Part shown: positions 45,940 through 55,238 of the stretch, piece after piece
Layout of the letters: every line of letters begins with the position of its first letter
Numbering within the stretch: position 1 is the stretch's first letter
Assembly (NCBI GenBank): GCA_012729475.1
Contig: JAAYDB010000043.1
Coordinates: forward strand, 1 to 55,302
Length of the DNA stretch: 55,302 nucleotides
Source of the DNA: Bacteroidota bacterium
GTDB taxonomy: Bacteria > Bacteroidota > Bacteroidia > Bacteroidales > VadinHA17
Direction: 5' to 3'
Made by a program: the position numbers and the translations under genes
Notes under the pieces: generated by a model
Seen by the model: the letters and a program-made list of their open reading frames with translations, nothing else
Database searches by the model: none
What the model was told of the DNA's origin: nothing

Positions 45940-46062
45940 ATATATTCATATTTTAATTTGAAAGCAATTTATAAAAACAGATTAACTTTTACACTGTTAT
46001 TTATCAGAAAACAATCATTGAGAAAAGACAAAAAATAATTATTTGCGACAGTATATAGTTTC

Positions 46063-46132
46063 CTGTTTTGTGCGAAAGACACCCAAAATAAATTTTATAT
46101 AATTATTCCTGGAATTTAATGCTGTGCAAAAC
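46063..46132 (+). repeat. Dispersed repeat family 1, copy A
   Basis: Core CTGTTTTGTG-CGAAAGACACCCAAAATAAA followed by TATAATTATTCC-GGAA and GTGCAAAAC. The same core occurs at 46386-46440 and, with changes, at 48596-48666. Confidence 0.75.
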
Positions 46133-46151
46133 ATTGATTCTTTTTTTCCAT

Positions 46152-46196
46152 GACACCGGAGGTGTCAACATCCAGTAGCCCGGGTTCCACCCCGGG
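46152..46196. repeat. Double-hairpin palindromic unit
   Basis: Two hairpins lie side by side: GACACC-GGA-GGTGTC (46152-46166) and CCCGGG-TTCCAC-CCCGGG (46179-46196). The GTAGCCCGGG-hairpin form resembles REP-like intergenic palindromes. A third small hairpin, CAGCCC-TCC-GGGCTG, lies at 46357-46371. Confidence 0.6.
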
Positions 46197-46275
46197 AAAG
46201 GTGCATTCATCATAACAACAACACTGGAGGGGTTGACTTCAAAATGACATCCTGACTGACGGTAGCTTTTCCCCG

Positions 46276-46307
46276 GTTGAAAAAGTTGAAGAAGTTAAAG
46301 GGGGTTG
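46276..46307 (+). repeat. Dispersed repeat family 3, copy 1
   Basis: GTTGAAAAAGTTGAAGAAG followed by TTAAAGGGGGTTGA. A close copy is at 46722-46757. Confidence 0.55.
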
Positions 46308-46385
46308 AAACGGTTTTATTGCCACTGCCCCGGTGGAACCTGTACTATTGGAAGTCCAGCCCTCCGGGCTGAAGAACTTTCTGTG

Positions 46386-46440
46386 CTGTTTTGTGCGAAA
46401 GACACCCAAAATAAATTTGATATAATTATTAACTGAATTC
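46386..46440 (+). repeat. Dispersed repeat family 1, copy B
   Basis: Same core as copy A over the first ~45 bases (CTGTTTTGTGCGAAAGACAC, then CCAAAATAAATTTGATATAA); it diverges after AATTATT. Confidence 0.75.
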
Positions 46441-46603
46441 CTATAAACCGGAATTTACGCTTCACGCTGTTCAGCTTCAATCTCTGCTTCACTTTATTCC
46501 CATACGAGCTACAAACTTCCTGCCATTTTCCTGTCTGTCCGACTCCTGAACCCACTGTACCTGTTCTGACCCCTAAATCCCCTGTGCTATTTCTGACCCC
46601 CTA

Positions 46604-46634
46604 CCCCCTAAAGGGGGTTTAACAGACTGTATGA
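46604..46634 (+). repeat. Dispersed repeat family 2, copy D
   Basis: CCCCCTAAAGGGGG is a short hairpin, followed by TTTAACAGACTGTATGA. Related copies lie at 46670-46698 and 48691-48720. Confidence 0.7.
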
Positions 46635-46669
46635 TAGGGTTTTATGTTTATATCATGTCCGACTCCAAT

Positions 46670-46698
46670 CTCCCAAAAGGAGGCTTAACAAGCAGTCA
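46670..46698 (+). repeat. Dispersed repeat family 2, copy E
   Basis: CTCCCAAAAGGAGG hairpin followed by CTTAACAAGCAGTCAT. The hairpin arms changed together relative to copy D, suggesting that base pairing is kept. GTCCGACTCC precedes it at 46657-46666, a string also seen before other repeat units and, inverted, near 24890. Confidence 0.65.
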
Positions 46699-46721
46699 TT
46701 CAGGGTTATGATATAGGTTGC

Positions 46722-46757
46722 GTTGAAAAAAGTTGAAGAGGTTGAAGGAAGTTTAAT
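46722..46757 (+). repeat. Dispersed repeat family 3, copy 2
   Basis: GTTGAAAAAAGTTGAAGAGG followed by TTGAAGGAAGTTTAA, matching the unit at 46276. Confidence 0.55.
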
Positions 46758-47184
46758 AGGTAGCGCCTTTATGGCCTGTGTAGCGGGCGTACAAACAGGG
46801 TGTGGAGGGGCAAAAGAACGAACATAATAATAAAAAGAATATATATAAAGGGAGCAAACCTTTTAAAGACACCGATATTTACAAGAAAAAAACACACTTT
46901 TAGTTATAAATCTGTTGGTTGGCATTTTGGAGGCCTGTAAACCGCACAAAACAAAAAAAGTCTTAAACACATACTGTCAGGCTATATTATTGAGTTTCAA
47001 ACTATGGTTTTAATTTTTTTTATGTTAAAAAATCCTTATTATTGTCATTATTGAGAAAATAGTTCTATAAAATGCAGGGAATCCTTCAAAAAGATTATTA
47101 TTTTTGGTTTTTATCATTATCTGCAGGATCATAATGAGAGTATTATTTCAGGGATAACTTATATACCAAATTAAACTTAACGAT

Positions 47185-48483
47185 ATGAAAAACATTTCGA
47201 GACGTAGATTCATTCACCATTCAGCTGTTGGTGCCACAGGATTGGCGCTGATGCCTATTTTACAGGGATTCAGGCCGGGTCCTAACGACACAGTCAGACT
47301 GGGGTTCATTGGACTGGGCCAGCAGGCAATGAACCTGTTGAACGGTATGAGCCGTATTCCCGGAGTTGATGTTGTTGCCGGTGCTGATCTCTACGGTATC
47401 AAAAGAGAGAGATTTGAACAAAGGGTTAAGGAATATGCAAAAGCTAACAACAAAGAAGCTTCTGTCACTACTTATTCCGATTACAGGAAAGTACTTGACC
47501 GCAACGATGTTGATGCCGTTGTTATTGCAACTCCCGACCACTGGCATGCCATGATAGCTATTGCCGCCTGCAGGGCCGGTAAGGATATCTATCAGGAAAA
47601 ACCTATTACTTTCACTATAAAAGAAGGTATAAAGGTTGCAGAAGAAGTGAGAAAGAACAATGTCATTTTTGCCACAGGAAGCCAGCAGAGATCTGACAGC
47701 AACTATCAACACGCTGTCAATATGGTCCACAGAGAAGCTATCGGGAAACTTGAAAAAGTATGGGCTTACGTAGGCCCGGGTCCCGATCCCTATGACCTGC
47801 CAGAACAACCTGTTCCAAAAGATCTTGACTGGAGAACATGGATTGGTCCGCTTCCGTATATACACTACAACGAAAGACTCAATCCTCCCATCTCACTCAG
47901 ACCTGTTAAGAATGAAACTTACTGGGGTGCATGGCGCTATTACAAAGAGACCGGTGGCGGATATACCTGCGACTGGGGTGCTCATAACTTTGATATCGGT
48001 CAGTGGGGACTTGGTAAAGACCACAGTGGTCCGGTGAAAATCATCCCTCCGGGATACCAGGATACACAATACCTGACCTATGTCTATGACAACGGAATAG
48101 AAATGATCAACCAGCCTTATGATGACAGAAAGACTCTCGGAATAAAATTCTGGGGATCTGACGGCTGGATAAGCGTATCCAGAGGACAGATAGATGCTTC
48201 CGACCCATCACTTCTGCCTCCGGCAGGTGAAAAACCCGATCCGGGACTCTATGAAAGAAGCTCATCGCACGTCGAAAACTTCATTCATGCAGTTAAAACA
48301 CGTCGCGATCCCGTTGCTCCCGTAGAAGTTGGAATGAGAACATGCACAGCCTGTATCCTTGGTAACATAGCTATTGAACTTGCCAGACCTGTTTACTGGT
48401 CACCGGTAGTCCAGTACTTCATCAACGATCCTGAAGCTGAAGTTCATTTCCACAGAGAATATCACAACGGATACCAGTTGTAG
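47185..48483 (+). CDS. Tat-exported Gfo/Idh/MocA oxidoreductase (second copy)
   Basis: A 432-residue protein with a twin-arginine signal (ISRRRFIHHSAVGATGLALM). Rossmann motif LGFIGLGQQAMNLLNG; catalytic-Lys motif IYQEKPITFTIKEGIKVAEE; ATGSQQRSDSNYQHAVN; WIGPLPYIHYNERLNPP and GAWRYYKETGGGYTCDWGAHNFDIGQWGLG are the exported subgroup signatures. It is a clear paralogue in architecture of the gene at 22608-24089, though sequence differs strongly. It stands between two repeat-rich stretches, followed by a strong terminator, and is transcribed alone. Substrate unknown, probably a sugar or glycoside. Confidence 0.9.
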   Translation: MKNISRRRFIHHSAVGATGLALMPILQGFRPGPNDTVRLGFIGLGQQAMNLLNGMSRIPGVDVVAGADLYGIKRERFEQRVKEYAKANNKEASVTTYSDYRKVLDRNDVDAVVIATPDHWHAMIAIAACRAGKDIYQEKPITFTIKEGIKVAEEVRKNNVIFATGSQQRSDSNYQHAVNMVHREAIGKLEKVWAYVGPGPDPYDLPEQPVPKDLDWRTWIGPLPYIHYNERLNPPISLRPVKNETYWGAWRYYKETGGGYTCDWGAHNFDIGQWGLGKDHSGPVKIIPPGYQDTQYLTYVYDNGIEMINQPYDDRKTLGIKFWGSDGWISVSRGQIDASDPSLLPPAGEKPDPGLYERSSSHVENFIHAVKTRRDPVAPVEVGMRTCTACILGNIAIELARPVYWSPVVQYFINDPEAEVHFHREYHNGYQL

Positions 48484-48526
48484 ATTATACTTTCTTTTAA
48501 AGGAAGAATAATAACTTAATAATCAT

Positions 48527-48567
48527 AAACCTGCAACAGAACATTGAGGATCTGTTGCAGGTTTTTT
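48527..48567 (+). terminator. Strong intrinsic terminator of the Gfo/Idh gene
   Basis: AAACCTGCAACAGA (48527-48540) pairs perfectly with TCTGTTGCAGGTTT (48551-48564) around a ten-base loop, followed by a T-run to 48567. Confidence 0.95.
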
Positions 48568-48595
48568 GTTTATTCGCCTGTTTATACCTAACATT

Positions 48596-48666
48596 CTGTT
48601 TTGTATAAAAAACACCCAAAATAAAATTTGATATTATTATTCCCGGAACTTTTTGCCGTGCAAAAC
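48596..48666 (+). repeat. Dispersed repeat family 1, copy C
   Basis: CTGTTTTGTATAAAAAACAC then CCAAAATAAAATTTGATATT and a shared end CCCGGAACTTT...GTGCAAAAC. It matches copy A along its full length with substitutions. Confidence 0.7.
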
Positions 48667-48690
48667 TCCATGTATGTCCAAGCCCTAAAC

Positions 48691-48720
48691 TTCCTAAAAG
48701 GGGCTTAACAGGCAGTATGA
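48691..48720 (+). repeat. Dispersed repeat family 2, copy F
   Basis: TTCCTAAAAGGGG then CTTAACAGGCAGTATGA, matching copies D and E; here the hairpin arms are partly mismatched. Confidence 0.65.
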
Positions 48721-48829
48721 CAACGATATGCGCTCTCTGTCTGTCTAACCCCTCAGGCTTATTAACTTAAAAAAAGGAAATTATTTAATCCGCCTTCGCA
48801 TAAAGCTATGACAGAGGCGAGAGTCAGTT

Positions 48830-49300
48830 TTAATTCCTCAGTGTTGCAATTAACCTGTTCTCATTGGTTAACAGGGATAAGGCATCAATGATACTGGTGC
48901 ATATTATTTGTACATTGTTTATGATCTGCGAGTATGCACCTTCTGCCTGTATTACACCAATACTAAGTGCTGATCCTTTAAGCATAAGAATATCATTTCT
49001 CCCATTTCCTATGGATATAACCTTATCAGGACCGAGATCAGTAACATAGTTCAGCTTCTGACTGGCCTGATTCTCTTTCTCTATAACCTGAAGAATAACA
49101 GGAATTCCCCTTAGCTCCTTTTCTGCTGTTCCAAATGTATCAGCTGTCAGAACATGTACCCGGATAACAGAACTTAACTTTTTCAGCCTATCCGCAACAC
49201 CCTGTATAATACAGCCATCAACTGCCAGTGTCCCGTTATAATCAAGAACAAGATGTTCTGCCTCGACAGGTTTACGACCCGGAATATCAAGTGTTAGCAC
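48830..49300 (-). CDS. Small HAD-family hydrolase (soluble P-type ATPase-like)
   Basis: A 156-residue HAD protein. Motif I is HLVLDYNGTLAVDG (Asp nucleophile; D-x-N rather than D-x-D), motif II Thr in VLTADTFG, motif III/IV VISIGNGRNDILML. This matches the small proteins annotated as soluble P-type ATPase-like phosphatases, which lack membrane parts. The start is GTG at 49300 (MLTLDIPG), with no ATG nearby. Its first 20 codons and upstream bases are duplicated in decayed form at 52808-52885. Substrate unknown. Confidence 0.8.
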   Translation of the reverse strand: MLTLDIPGRKPVEAEHLVLDYNGTLAVDGCIIQGVADRLKKLSSVIRVHVLTADTFGTAEKELRGIPVILQVIEKENQASQKLNYVTDLGPDKVISIGNGRNDILMLKGSALSIGVIQAEGAYSQIINNVQIICTSIIDALSLLTNENRLIATLRN

Positions 49301-49317
49301 GATAATGTATATTGTTT
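49241..49317 (-). repeat. Direct repeat 1: 5' end of the HAD gene
   Basis: By hand alignment about 65 of 77 bases match 52808-52885 with one single-base gap. It covers the first codons of the HAD gene (through the AEHLVLD region) and about 17 bases upstream. Both copies have the same orientation and bound a 3.5-kb segment. Confidence 0.75.
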
Positions 49318-49493
49318 TTCAAATGCATACTGATTTGCTATATCTGAAGCACTTACAGTAAAATGGCCGCTTTTTATAATGATATACAAAAATACTGAAA
49401 ATTACTACAAGAATTTAATCTAGTTATTATAAAAGATTGTCATATCGAACTTTGTTTTAATGGTATGACAGCCCGACGAGCTTATCATGAGCA

Positions 49494-49540
49494 CCCACAT
49501 GTAAGTGATTATTAACATATTGGATATTTAATCATGTGGG
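49494..49540. repeat. Inverted repeat upstream of the SusD remnant
   Basis: CCCACATG (49494-49501) and CATGTGGG (49533-49540) are perfect inverted copies 31 bases apart, ending 14 bases before the ATG at 49555. It may be a regulatory hairpin of the former gene or a remnant end of a mobile element. Confidence 0.4.
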
Positions 49541-49554
49541 GTTCACAAACAACC

Positions 49555-49795
49555 ATGATTAAAAAAGTATATGTGAAAGTAAATCTGTACCTTATCCTGC
49601 AATCAGGACGATTTTCTTGAAACCACGGACAGATCGAAGCTGACCGATACCACAATGTGCGTAATTGAGGAGAATGCCGATGTATACCTTAATGACTGTT
49701 ATAGTGAACAGTTTGTACTACCCGGGGGATTGTCTGTTGTGACAAAACCCCAGGAAACAAAACCGGGGCTACTGACAATGACCTCCTGCCTGTGA
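49555..49795 (+). pseudogene. SusD/RagB-like outer membrane lipoprotein, N-terminal remnant
   Basis: An ATG at 49555 gives a signal-peptide-like start (MIKKVYVKVNLYLIL). At about 49592-49600 the coherent sequence shifts frame and continues as LSCNQDDFLETTDRSKLTDT and then EENADVYLNDCYSEQF before a stop at 49793-49795. This is the classical SusD start: lipobox Cys, N-D-FL-x-T-x, then the first helix with DCY. A further shifted frame continues after it (VIRYDTVYAGCG...). Only about 80 of the usual ~500 codons remain. No susC is adjacent, so a polysaccharide utilisation locus has been lost or left behind here. Confidence 0.6.
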
Positions 49796-50081
49796 TCAGG
49801 TATGATACCGTATATGCCGGATGCGGGGACCCAGTATCTGAACAACTGTTGACATTGACGCAAAAAAAGATCCAATTCTTACAGAAGTATAACAACATGA
49901 TGTTTTTCTCATCGAAAAAAGTTCTGAAAAAACCGCTGTCAGGTTTATTTTTTCTACCAATTAATTATTAGTCAAATTAACGAGATAAAGATCCGAAGAA
50001 TCTGACTATTAGTTAAGATTGTGTGTGCACATTATTATTTTTGTACAATAACAATATGAGAAATGAATCCTTTATGGATAA

Positions 50082-50315
50082 TTAACTATATATAATTGTT
50101 ATGTTATAAATACTCATATTCAATACTACTCAGACAGAAAGGCAGGCTTGAAAAGCAGAAGCCAGGCAACTACCCATAACAGGCTTGTAGCTGAGTTTTT
50201 TGTTATCAGGTCGGGCTGGATACAGGAGATACAGGCTGTTATTGTCAACCGATCTGACGAACTGCCAACCGGATGGGAACCAGATTACGGACCAGACCGT
50301 GCGGTGGAAAAATGA
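50082..50315 (+). pseudogene. Probable 3' remnant of a small exported/NTF2-like protein gene
   Basis: A frame open from just after TAA at 50079 to TGA at 50313 has no ATG, but its end reads VAEFFVIRSGWIQEIQAVIV then NRSDELPTGWEPDYGPD. This resembles, from memory, the C-termini of SnoaL/NTF2-like proteins (V-R-x-GKI-x-EI-x-AV ... PSGWE). It ends 57 bases before the lipoprotein ATG. The identity is uncertain. Confidence 0.3.
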
Positions 50316-50371
50316 GGTAATAAAATTTAAAATATATAAGTATTTTTAGATATCATTAAACTGTTTCAAAA

Positions 50372-52804
50372 ATGAAAAGATCAGTGTATTTTGTAATATC
50401 AGGCCTGGTAATGTTGCTTCTGGTCTCATGTAGCCAGAAAAAAGTAAGTCTGGGTGATCTGCAATCAGGATCAAATGTTTCTTTCGTTCCGGATACCAGC
50501 GGATCATGGGGTATTGAGATAACAGGCAACACTGTTCCGGTGCTGATCAACCGCCAACCCGCACAAATCGAAATTTTCGAAAGCGAAGAGAATGTAACCC
50601 GAATTACTGCTGGTTATCAGTCAGTTAAGAAAAAGGGTGGTGTATTGACAGCAGTTGCACATTTAACCGGAACTAACGGAGCAGAGTTTGAAGTTGAAGA
50701 TAAGTGGAGTATTTCAGGTGATGTATTGTCGCTCAAAAGAAAAGTGTCAGTTACAGGAAGTGAAGAGAATGCCGGATTTCTTTCAGCTATCCGGTTTTCA
50801 ACCACGCCGGATATTAAATGGGAGGATATAAGTTATTTTTCTCCTGATGTGCTCTACGGCGATCCCACTTACGACGGAGAGACCTCACCCGGAGGCACAC
50901 TGGCTTACGATGCAAAATGCTTTTCTATCCGGGAGGATTATATTTCTGCACCACTGTTTGGTCTATCATTTAAGAACGGAAACTGGGCCGCAGTATTAGA
51001 TCTCGCGCCGGATGGTGCCACAACGATGGAAGAAACTACTGCTCAGGCCACTACTCCCGTGATTGATGAACGAATTCAGTTCGGGGCAGTCGGCGCCAGA
51101 GAGACCCCGGATGGAGGTGTAGAATTTGGGTTCTGGATTCCGGGTACCATAAATGAATTTAGTGGTCGCTTTGGTTTTGGTGGAAATACAACAACTCCGA
51201 CCCAGGTAGTAAGACGACGTTATCATCCTGTAAAAGATGGATTTGTCCAAAATTACCAGGTAGGTTTTCGCATCAGCCATGGAGAATCCTTTAACTCACT
51301 TGTGCGTGATGCCTGGCGCTGGGCCTGGGAAAGCCTTAAGCCACAGGTAACACCCATAGATATAGAAGTCGCCCGAACTGCAATGATCGATCATCTGGCA
51401 GACCATGTACTTGTTGTTGGTGATATGGCAGGTGTCGGATTCCTGTATGATGCTGTTACCGGTAACCCGGGCTCTTATCGCAGATCGACCATGCCCCGGC
51501 CGGCAGGAATGCCGGTCAGACCGGAACCACCAAGACCACCTCATCAGTCCAACCAGTCGACTCAGACCCGTCCTATATTAGGTGATACAGGGCGTTCAGT
51601 TCCTACTCCTGAAGAACTGGTAAAAATGCAGGCTCTGGCCCGTACCCTGGGGGTTAAGTTTGATCCGGAAGCATACGAGCTGGCACGCTGGACAAAAATA
51701 TTGATGGGATTCGTTTCAAAAGGTATCGAATCGGCCGATCAATTACTGATTGAAGGAGACCGCGATCAGGGTTCCCGGGGCCAGAGAATGAGGGAACTGG
51801 GTCTGAAGATAATAAACAGTTTCGTACATCTGGTACCAATGGCGCCTCCTGCCGGTACCGGGTTCAATCTGTTGACCGGCAAACCGGACAGCCAGTCGGA
51901 AGGAGCAGTTACAATAAGAGAGCCATCGGAAGGTATCCGCATACTGATAGATGTAATCCGCCGCGAGAGAAAATCAGGTCGTGAACATCCCGAATGGATG
52001 GAATGGTGCCAGCAGTTCGGTGACTGGCTGATCACTCAGCAAGGAGCCGACGGGTCTTTCCCAAGAGCCTGGTATGCAGGTCTGGGCACTCCCCTGCAAG
52101 AATCAGGGACAACCAGTTGTATTCCGGTACCTATGCTGGTAAGGCTGAGCGAAGAGACTGGCCGGCAAAAATATATCGAAAGTGCCATCCGTGCTGCTGA
52201 ATATATATGGAATACTTATGGCAGCAGGGATATTTTCATCGGCGGTACAACCGATAATCCCAATATGACTGATAAGGAAGCCGGTATGCTCGCTCTGGAA
52301 GGGTATCTGTCCCTTTATGAAAATACAAAAGATGACAAATGGCTTGAAAGAGCAAAGGCAGCTGCCAATTTTGCGGAGAGCTGGATATGGATATGGAATG
52401 TACCAATGCCTGTGGATGCTGATCCTGCTTCCCTTGCATGGAAACCGGGTGTGCCTACAACAGGAGTCAACGGGATTACAGCCCGTGGATCAGGTGTGGA
52501 CCAATATATGGCCTGGTCTGTTCCTGCTTATGCCAAGATGTACAGGTATACCGGTGATGAGCACTACCTTGACGTTGCAAGGATACTTTTATTGAATACA
52601 AAGGCAATGCTCGCTATTCCCGGACGTACGTATGACCTTCTCGGACCAGGCTGGCAACAGGAAAACTGGAGCATGGGGAGAAACAGGGGTAACGGTTCTC
52701 ACCGGAGCTGGCTGCCCTGGGTCTCTGTTAACCATCTGCACGGTATCACAGGCCTTGAAGAATTCGACCAGGATCTGTATCAGCAGCTGATTAACGGAAA
52801 CTGA
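50372..52804 (+). CDS. Large lipoprotein with helical-barrel C-terminus, family not recognised
   Basis: An 810-residue lipoprotein: signal peptide with lipobox LLLVSC (Cys21). Residues about 30-330 are beta-rich, like the sandwich domains that precede sugar-active barrels (VTRITAGYQSVKKKGG; FSIREDYISAPLFGLSFKNGNWAAVLD). A Pro/Arg/Ser-rich linker occupies about 372-415. The C-terminal ~400 residues have repeated helix pairs with aromatic-rich loops (WMEWCQQFGDWLITQQGADGSFPRAWYAG; AAEYIWNTYG; NFAESWIWIWNVPM; ARILLLNTKAML) like a six-hairpin glycosidase or polysaccharide lyase toroid. Candidate carboxylate residues are visible but none is assignable. It probably acts on a polysaccharide at the outer membrane. 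Sequence is more GC-rich than its neighbours, suggesting transfer. Confidence 0.6.
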   Translation: MKRSVYFVISGLVMLLLVSCSQKKVSLGDLQSGSNVSFVPDTSGSWGIEITGNTVPVLINRQPAQIEIFESEENVTRITAGYQSVKKKGGVLTAVAHLTGTNGAEFEVEDKWSISGDVLSLKRKVSVTGSEENAGFLSAIRFSTTPDIKWEDISYFSPDVLYGDPTYDGETSPGGTLAYDAKCFSIREDYISAPLFGLSFKNGNWAAVLDLAPDGATTMEETTAQATTPVIDERIQFGAVGARETPDGGVEFGFWIPGTINEFSGRFGFGGNTTTPTQVVRRRYHPVKDGFVQNYQVGFRISHGESFNSLVRDAWRWAWESLKPQVTPIDIEVARTAMIDHLADHVLVVGDMAGVGFLYDAVTGNPGSYRRSTMPRPAGMPVRPEPPRPPHQSNQSTQTRPILGDTGRSVPTPEELVKMQALARTLGVKFDPEAYELARWTKILMGFVSKGIESADQLLIEGDRDQGSRGQRMRELGLKIINSFVHLVPMAPPAGTGFNLLTGKPDSQSEGAVTIREPSEGIRILIDVIRRERKSGREHPEWMEWCQQFGDWLITQQGADGSFPRAWYAGLGTPLQESGTTSCIPVPMLVRLSEETGRQKYIESAIRAAEYIWNTYGSRDIFIGGTTDNPNMTDKEAGMLALEGYLSLYENTKDDKWLERAKAAANFAESWIWIWNVPMPVDADPASLAWKPGVPTTGVNGITARGSGVDQYMAWSVPAYAKMYRYTGDEHYLDVARILLLNTKAMLAIPGRTYDLLGPGWQQENWSMGRNRGNGSHRSWLPWVSVNHLHGITGLEEFDQDLYQQLINGN

Positions 52805-52807
52805 AGG

Positions 52808-52885
52808 ATCAGGAACAAGATGTTCTGCTTTGACACGTTTTACGACACGGAAAATCAAGTAGCAGCACAGTAATGTGTATTGTTT
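52808..52885 (-). pseudogene. Decayed 5' fragment of a HAD gene (direct repeat 2)
   Basis: Aligned with the start of the HAD gene at 49300: on the minus strand it reads a GTG start, a related LLLDFP start, and, after a one-base shift, RVKAEHLVPD against PVEAEHLVLD. The match begins three bases after the lipoprotein stop and ends 12 bases before the mscS end at 52898. The rest of that HAD gene is missing. It is either the leftover of a tandem paralogue or one end of an insertion. Confidence 0.65.
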
Positions 52886-52897
52886 GCTAAAGCAAAT

Positions 52898-53722
52898 TTA
52901 TTTATTACCCTCAATATGTACATCCATTTGCGGGAAAGGTATATTGAGCTGGTAATCGCTGAATTGTTTATAGACTTTTTCATTCATATCAAAAAATACA
53001 CCCCAGTAATCTTCACTGTTAACCCAGGCTCTTACGGCAAAATTTACTTAACTGTCTGCAAGCTCTGAAAGACCAATAAATCTCTCCGGTTCTTTCAGAA
53101 TCCTTTCATCCTCATCCAAAAACTTATTAATGGCCTTCCTGAAATTCTCAACATCATCCCCGTAAGCTATCCCGAATGTCCAGTCAACACGGCGCTGTGG
53201 TTCAGCTGAATAATTTGTCAGAGAATTATTTGCAAGAGAAGCATTGGGAATAATAATTCGTTTTTTATCCGGTGTATTTAAAATTGTTGTAAAAATACTG
53301 ATTGATATTACAGTTCCCATATAGCCTTCAGCTTCGATAAAATCTCCTACCTTAAATGGTTTAAAAATAAGGATCATCACCCCTCCGGCAAAATTCTGAA
53401 GTGTACCCGACAATGCCATACCTATTGCCAGACCGGCAGCACCCAGAACGGCAATAAAGGATGTCATCTGAATACCGATCATTCCCATAACAGAAATGAT
53501 GAGCATAACTTTTAGCAGAATATTTGTAAGACTCTTCAGAAAAGGTGTCAGGGAGGGATCTATCTTAGATTTTGACAACGATTTCGCAACTCCTCTGGTG
53601 ATCAGCTTAATAATCCAAAGACCCAGGACAAGTACCAATATTGCCCCAAGAAGTTTTGGACCATATTCTATTCCAAAATCAACTATCTTATCGATATAAT
53701 TAACTGCATTTAATTCATTCAT
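52898..53722 (-). pseudogene. MscS-family mechanosensitive channel with in-frame stop
   Basis: The intact reading would give 274 residues plus one extra codon. Three N-terminal helices (about 20-40, 60-80, 85-110) include the pore helix FIAVLGAAGLAIGMALSGTLQNFAGG, then the beta domain VGDFIEAEGYMGTVISISIFTT, NTPDKKRIIIPNASLANN and the start of the C-terminal vestibule. A TAA at 53050-53048 stops it after GLSELADS; beyond it the same frame continues with a normal MscS end ([20 protein letters not shown] ... [15 protein letters not shown]) to a second TAA at 52900. One base change, for example TCA to TAA, explains it. A shortened 224-residue channel may still be made. Confidence 0.85.
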
Positions 53723-53727
53723 GTGTT

Positions 53728-53733
53728 ACCTCC
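53728..53733 (-). promoter_or_regulatory. Shine-Dalgarno-like site before mscS
   Basis: GGAGGT lies five bases before the ATG at 53722. Such strong sites are rare in front of genes in this phylum, and I did not notice another as good before the other genes here. Confidence 0.5.
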
Positions 53734-53900
53734 AATTTTATATTTATTAAATCTGTTATATATCAAGGCTAATAAATATAATAAAACATACCCGGATATA
53801 AAAATTGAAGGATCAGAGAATCTTGTTTCAGATATTATTAATGACATTTAATATGTCACGTCCGGAAGGAACTAACAGGACAAACAAATCTAGTTTTTTG

Positions 53901-53975
53901 TGGGGCGTACTGGATTCGAACCAGTGACCTCTTGCCTGTCAAGCAAGCGTTCTGAACCAACTGAACTAACGTCCC
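53901..53975 (-). tRNA. tRNA-Val (GAC anticodon)
   Basis: On the minus strand the cloverleaf folds: acceptor GGGACGT/ACGCCCC, D arm GTTC-AGTTGGTTCA-GAAC, anticodon stem CTTGC/GCAAG with loop TTGACAG (anticodon GAC, reading GUC and GUU), T arm ACTGG-TTCGAAT-CCAGT. The discriminator is A and CCA is not encoded. One A-C mismatch (position 4 with 69) is present in the acceptor stem. The rest of 53734-54101 around it shows no other gene. Confidence 0.9.
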
Positions 53976-54101: not shown

Positions 54102-55238
54102 TCAGGAAAAATCAAATCCTGATATATAGGCGGGAACATCATAGAAACGGTCTTTTTCTTCATCAGACAGGTTGATGAATTTTGAATAAACAAGGCCGGG
54201 CTTTGCATTAAGCATCCTGTTAAGAGCTCCCATTTTAACTACAGTACGTATCTTATCGTAAAGAGTACTTCTGTCATCAAGCCATGTAAGTCCTGTATTA
54301 TAACCTTCCATGGCACAGGCTGTCTCAAAGAGACCGGCCAGGACTTTTTCTTTTCCTTTTCTGCAATAGATGGCATCAAAAACAAGGTATCTGAATTCTT
54401 CCGGACTGAACAACCTTCTGAAAAAGGGAGTTCCGGGAAGCACTTTCATCATTACCCACCCCCATACACCCGGTATATTGTATATTTTATAAGCTGAAGG
54501 AATAGCACACACCCCTGCGATTATTTCATTACCTTCTCTCATGACGTAATATCTGTTTTTGTCAAAAGCATGTTCTGCCGTGAAAAAAGAATAGTCCCTG
54601 TAAAAATCACTCAACAGTTTCTTCATCACAGGTTTTTCTTCCTCTGAAAGCTTTGACACTCTCTTATCGGGTTTGGGGTTAAAGCGGCTGAAGGCAAGAG
54701 TAAGAAAAGACCGGATATATTCATAGCCAGCCTTATGAACAAGGTTTTTGGAACGTTCATTCATGCTCTCTATAAAAGCATACATTATATGTTTTCCCGT
54801 TTCAAACACTTCCGGCAGATCGAGCAGATAAGGTTTACTAAATATTTCGAGGGTTCTCTGTTTAAAAGAATCATCGTGTTCATGATGAATATAATCCTTC
54901 TTCTCTCCTTTCCGGTTCATATCAGACTGATAAACCGACTGAAAAGCCAGATATCGTATATGTGTTGTGGGATAACACAAGGCCCCCCGGCCTGATACAC
55001 GGAAACATGCACCTACAGTACCTGTTATCTTATTGTTTTTATAAAGAGATACAAACCTGATCCGGTTCCCGTATTCTTTTATCCGCTCTTCAATATTCTG
55101 AAGCTGGAACCGCATCCCTCCTTCAGAACCCTGAACAGCACGGTTGAGAATACCCAGTATCCCGTCATGAGCATGATCGGATACCCTTACTTCAAGTCCC
55201 CTGTATTTAATAATGGTTGTCTCAGGCATACCTGTCAT
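54102..55238 (-). CDS. GNAT-like acetyltransferase of unknown role
   Basis: 378 residues. The N-terminal third fits a GNAT fold (IRFVSLYKNNKITGTVGACFRVS beta strands, then YLAFQSVYQSDMNRKG) and a second half-like unit appears later (RYYVMREGNEIIAGVCAIPSAYKIYNIPG and LVFDAIYCRKGKEKVLAGLFETACAMEGYNTGL), as in tandem GNAT proteins. NERSKNLVHKAGYEYIRSF in between matches the end of a GNAT domain. Substrate unknown. The start is ATG at 55238; an ATG three codons later is also possible. The 64 bases beyond it hold nothing that I recognise. Confidence 0.6.
   Translation of the reverse strand: MTGMPETTIIKYRGLEVRVSDHAHDGILGILNRAVQGSEGGMRFQLQNIEERIKEYGNRIRFVSLYKNNKITGTVGACFRVSGRGALCYPTTHIRYLAFQSVYQSDMNRKGEKKDYIHHEHDDSFKQRTLEIFSKPYLLDLPEVFETGKHIMYAFIESMNERSKNLVHKAGYEYIRSFLTLAFSRFNPKPDKRVSKLSEEEKPVMKKLLSDFYRDYSFFTAEHAFDKNRYYVMREGNEIIAGVCAIPSAYKIYNIPGVWGWVMMKVLPGTPFFRRLFSPEEFRYLVFDAIYCRKGKEKVLAGLFETACAMEGYNTGLTWLDDRSTLYDKIRTVVKMGALNRMLNAKPGLVYSKFINLSDEEKDRFYDVPAYISGFDFS

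Follow-up and report, generated by a model that had tools for sequence, protein, structure and literature searches.

Two copies of the 5′ end of a HAD-like hydrolase gene, one belonging to an intact gene and the other a decayed fragment beside mscS, bracket a mosaic segment of lipoprotein-gene DNA and gene remnants in the Bacteroidota window studied here (the whole stretch of DNA analysed, 55,302 nucleotides). Our preferred reading, to which we give a probability of roughly 0.55, is that DNA bearing the lipoprotein gene was inserted into an mscS-HAD gene pair within an accessory region and that the HAD start was partly duplicated in the process. The feature is ordinary genome flux, a record of gene gain and decay of an already known kind rather than a new system. 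It provides a single documented case of accessory carbohydrate genes entering a Bacteroidales chromosome beside a tRNA gene and being worn down there. It also carries a warning for annotation, as neither the truncated mscS nor the HAD-start fragment should be called a working gene. Coordinates are given in Table 1.

Table 1. Features of the gfo-to-tRNA-Val interval and its flanks (window positions)
Feature	Position	Strand	Evidence or details
Gfo/Idh/MocA-type oxidoreductase gene (gfo), conserved left flank	47185..48483	+	Pfam; 87% amino acid identity and syntenic in G041
HAD-like (soluble P-type-ATPase-like) hydrolase gene, intact, GTG start, 156 aa	48830..49300	-	Pfam/NCBIfam; full-length alignment with 16 relatives
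Copy 1 of repeat	49241..49317	-	First 20 HAD codons and 17 nt upstream
Mobile-element remnant, left end of a repeated element, first 27 nt missing	49312..49407	+	Matches 3 copies in G014 and 19 in G009
Intergenic hairpin repeat, decayed (ACCCACATGT...CATGTGGGGT)	49455..49547	+	Matches 3 places in G021 and 1 in G068
SusD 5′ remnant	49595..49707	+	70-75% DNA identity, five genus members
3′ remnant of secreted-protein gene, last ~55 codons	50139..50302	+	77% DNA identity, G041
Glycoside-hydrolase-like lipoprotein gene, 810 aa, intact	50372..52804	+	Weak GH76/GH127 Pfam matches
Copy 2 of repeat, decayed 5′ fragment of HAD gene	52808..52885	-	One inserted base
mscS, internal TAA at 53048-53050	52898..53722	-	Native stop 52898-52900
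tRNA-Val (GAC), edge of variable interval	53900..53975	-	Similarity to G041 begins at 53897
Right-flank gene, acyltransferase-like by reading, no Pfam/NCBIfam match	54102..55238	-	55/62 genus genomes; syntenic in G041

The two copies of the HAD 5′ end (first 77 bases) have the same orientation and are 83% identical with one indel, and the decayed copy lies between the lipoprotein gene and mscS, exactly where an earlier reading of the sequence without database searches (the sequence-only reading) had placed it. Their local alignment scored 90, compared with a maximum of 30 among 30 mononucleotide shuffles, and a BLASTN search showed these to be the only two sites in the 2.97-Mb assembly (copy 2, E = 4.9e-16). 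Similarity past the 77 nt was not significant when a gapped extension to 49337 and 52904 (~97 columns) was assessed by shuffling (about 0.12). The lipoprotein gene stops at 52804 and mscS at 52898, and copy 2 takes up nearly all of the space from one to the other. Judging from coordinates, 29 nt separate the native stop of mscS from the copy 2 start codon behind it, an operon-like arrangement, as if copy 2 were the second gene of a pair.

The inserted base in copy 2 is a frameshift. Over the 60 shared coding nucleotides there are also nine substitutions, distributed 4/3/2 over codon positions 1/2/3. These alter copy 2 at I6, G8 and L19, all of which are retained in copy 1; among 17 HAD proteins, I6 is invariant, G8 nearly invariant, and position 19 holds L or M with few exceptions. 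Because all codon positions are affected and conserved residues are hit, copy 2 appears to have drifted as a fragment free of coding constraint, as far as so few changes (n = 9) can indicate. The probability of two or fewer third-position changes among nine is 0.38 when unconstrained and about 0.07 at a third-position share of 0.52, an assumed value set from comparisons of copy 1 with its relatives. The aligned copies have diverged by 17%, less than the flanking genes have done between the window and a relative, G041 (20% for gfo and 25% for the right-flank gene). This suggests that the duplication is probably younger than the split from G041, with a wide error, a small sample and unequal rates.

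The variable DNA extends well beyond the repeat. Among the relatives found, G041 alone keeps both flanks, with gfo, tRNA-Val and the right-flank gene (75% amino acid identity) in the same order. The interval from gfo to tRNA-Val measures 5.3 kb in the window vs 3.2 kb with three unrelated genes in G041, and DNA similarity between the two ends just after gfo and 3 bp beyond the tRNA-Val 3′ end. The HAD gene, the segment and mscS are all missing from the syntenic G041 locus; hence, the accessory unit is the entire 5.3-kb interval, HAD and mscS included. The 3.5 kb between the HAD copies had been proposed as an accessory segment, and its accessory nature holds, but the unit is the whole interval. 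The genes beside tRNA-Val differ again in other genus members, and no relative was found with an empty site (the interval without the insert). A tRNA-targeted genomic island was considered and rejected: no duplicate of the tRNA-Val 3′ end was found as a far boundary in 46000-53890, where the best match was an 18-base stretch at chance level. Separately, the intact tRNA-Val of G013 and that of G011 each have a second, partial or degenerate copy nearby, as would be seen at an integration site (L298 7946-7987 and 8289-8364; L297 8037-8112 and 8131-8206). At the other end of the window, the contig starts inside a gene that reads as transposase-like (1-733), so the assembly probably broke at a repeat there.

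The remnants between the copies were identified through DNA comparison with the genus; scanning the reading frames of 49301-50371 against Pfam gave nothing usable. The mobile-element remnant (alignment score 42, shuffle maximum 19) directly abuts the HAD start, and TTGTTT is common to both at the junction. This element end, like the internal TAA of mscS, had been missed by the sequence-only reading. Matches to the element in G009 and G014 often lie near contig ends, as expected of repeated mobile DNA. The element starts with CCTGAATTATTCATAA, and its matches comprise 19 in G009 (L216-L234) and others in G014 (L215, L218, L220); some of these copies are apparently short and without a transposase. 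We claim no family for it, as only its left end is readable in those genomes and several copies look short. The genome to which the window belongs contains no full copy, the element DNA matching the remnant alone there, and a search with DDE_Tnp_1_4, a guess at the kind of element, returned one sub-threshold match elsewhere. An intergenic repeat that contains an inverted repeat (ACCCACATGT...ACATGTGGGT; conserved side TTCATCAT..TAATTTTAATGGTATGAT) was also seen, often beside a gene start (L121 1009-1076, L125, L130, and L124 around 1501).

Two gene remnants had been predicted in the segment, and both are borne out by related DNA. In G074 (L119), the only one of the five genus members whose genes were read, the DNA matching the SusD remnant opens an intact SusD gene with SusC in front of it. 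The other, which had been left unnamed, is the end of a secreted-protein gene whose G041 counterpart is intact and encodes 308 aa. The lipoprotein gene is richer in GC than its surroundings, as had also been remarked (up to 0.52 vs 0.35-0.40). Its best relative (79% amino acid identity) is in G041, within a carbohydrate-enzyme cluster whose genes, judged by reading the neighbor sequences, resemble those for GH43, GH127 and esterase. The next gene in G041 overlaps the lipoprotein stop codon, whereas the HAD fragment in the window begins 3 nt after that stop, which indicates that the original downstream gene was lost. No integrase, transposase or mobility gene occurs among the open reading frames of 48500-53900.

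The distribution of the intact HAD gene is scattered across the order. It was found in 9/116 other family genomes and, within the genus, in only two other of 61 members, G053 (61% amino acid identity) and G004 (57%). This type of mscS is common in the order, but no closely related mscS was found in the other genus members searched (best matches 22-32%, to other MscS proteins). The in-frame TAA of mscS sits 50 codons ahead of the native stop; the rest of the frame is open and conserved, and 46 relatives align through the position of the TAA codon. Either mscS became a pseudogene recently or the assembly is wrong at the TAA. The idea that mscS normally adjoins HAD in relatives was not upheld: mscS was close to HAD at 0/121 HAD loci, and HAD close to mscS at 0/50 mscS loci, counting all loci gathered. 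Flanks were at least 1.4 kb on each side at 97 HAD loci and at least 7 kb on each side at 35, and with these limited lengths the case against a distant HAD-mscS linkage is weaker than that against adjacency.

The decayed repeat, the remnants, the conservation of both flanks and the unrelated interval in G041 are observations, from which we infer an ancestral mscS-HAD pair, its disruption by an insertion, possible mechanisms and an order of events. The gfo-to-tRNA-Val interval would be an accessory region specific to the lineage, where genes turn over and where a minus-strand pair once stood with HAD 29 nt behind mscS. Lipoprotein-gene DNA, accompanied by pieces of mobile elements and of a Sus-type cluster, may then have entered at the HAD start, so that HAD stayed intact at one end while its first ~77 nt were duplicated next to mscS. 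This geometry could arise through end joining with templated repair or through a single crossover with a circular molecule. The HAD fragment would subsequently have drifted without function, and mscS now appears to be decaying as well. The segment is a mosaic, and more than one event is therefore needed. Several results count against this history, namely that an adjacent mscS-HAD pair is found at none of the 121 and 50 loci, that searches recovered neither an empty site among relatives nor an integrase or transposase in the segment, and that the codon-position pattern comprises nine changes.

An insertion that split or duplicated the HAD locus, or the loss of a tandem paralogue, had both been suggested from the sequence; insertion is still the best reading. 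In the latter case, two full HAD genes would have stood behind mscS, and the mscS-proximal one would have died and been truncated when the lipoprotein segment joined it, by insertion or deletion. This scenario fits nearly as well as an insertion into an mscS-HAD pair, and we regard it as possible though rather unlikely. The start codon and upstream bases of copy 2, placed as in a gene following mscS, agree with it, and elsewhere one contig does carry a pair of HAD loci separated by 5 kb (L191). Nonetheless, the remainder of copy 2 leaves no trace, the changes do not favor third codon positions, and more than one HAD match was found in none of the 117 family genomes searched. A relative with the same gene order and two intact HAD paralogues, which would point to simple gene decay, was also sought without success. 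It is improbable that the mscS-side fragment and the intact HAD gene arrived independently from different donors, with no duplication in this genome. The whole interval is accessory, as such arrivals would predict, but the nearest other HAD genes share only 57-61% of their amino acids with the intact one, compared with 83% DNA identity between the copies; because the copies are so much closer to each other than to other HAD genes, it is unlikely that both arrived independently at the same site.

If a site-specific integrative element had inserted at the HAD 5′ end and brought a replacement 5′ end with it, as SXT/R391 elements do at prfC, the copies would be its attachment sites, and the expected geometry is the one seen here: direct repeats containing a gene start, with the gene intact on one side of the segment. 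We consider such an origin highly unlikely, however, as the segment is a 3.5-kb mosaic of remnants without an integrase or mobility gene, the second copy is decayed, and a HAD gene present in so few genus members makes a poor target. The candidate attachment sites are direct repeats with 83% identity. Still more doubtful, to the point of being barely credible, is an undescribed small Bacteroidales integrative element specific for the gene starts of this HAD family, which uses HAD 5′ ends as attachment sites and carries polysaccharide-degrading cargo. The ends of a transposon insert would show short identical duplications and terminal inverted repeats; here, no inverted repeat pairing the segment ends was found, and the repeat is 77 nt long and diverged.

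Among known systems, SXT/R391 elements integrate at the 5′ end of prfC (PMC2791158). The locus resembles them in having a gene 5′ end as its site and matching sequences at both junctions, but differs in its small mosaic segment without an integrase or element backbone, its decayed repeat, and a target that is not conserved in the genus. The SusD remnant and the CAZyme-like lipoprotein, whose relatives lie in carbohydrate-enzyme clusters, recall the Sus-type polysaccharide utilization loci of Bacteroidota. Unlike those loci, which are recognized by a SusC-SusD pair, the segment holds a scrap of SusD alone, no SusC and a single surviving enzyme gene. Regions whose content shifts between constant flanks, frequently lacking mobility genes, have been well documented, and half of the chromosomal hotspots in the study by Oliveira et al. 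(2017) had no evidence of mobile elements (PMC5635113). Such hotspots were defined statistically within species, whereas here both flanks are seen in one syntenic relative, G041. Like these gene-turnover hotspots, the interval has no mobility gene inside, holds unrelated content in two relatives, and is bounded by conserved flanking genes with a tRNA gene at its edge.
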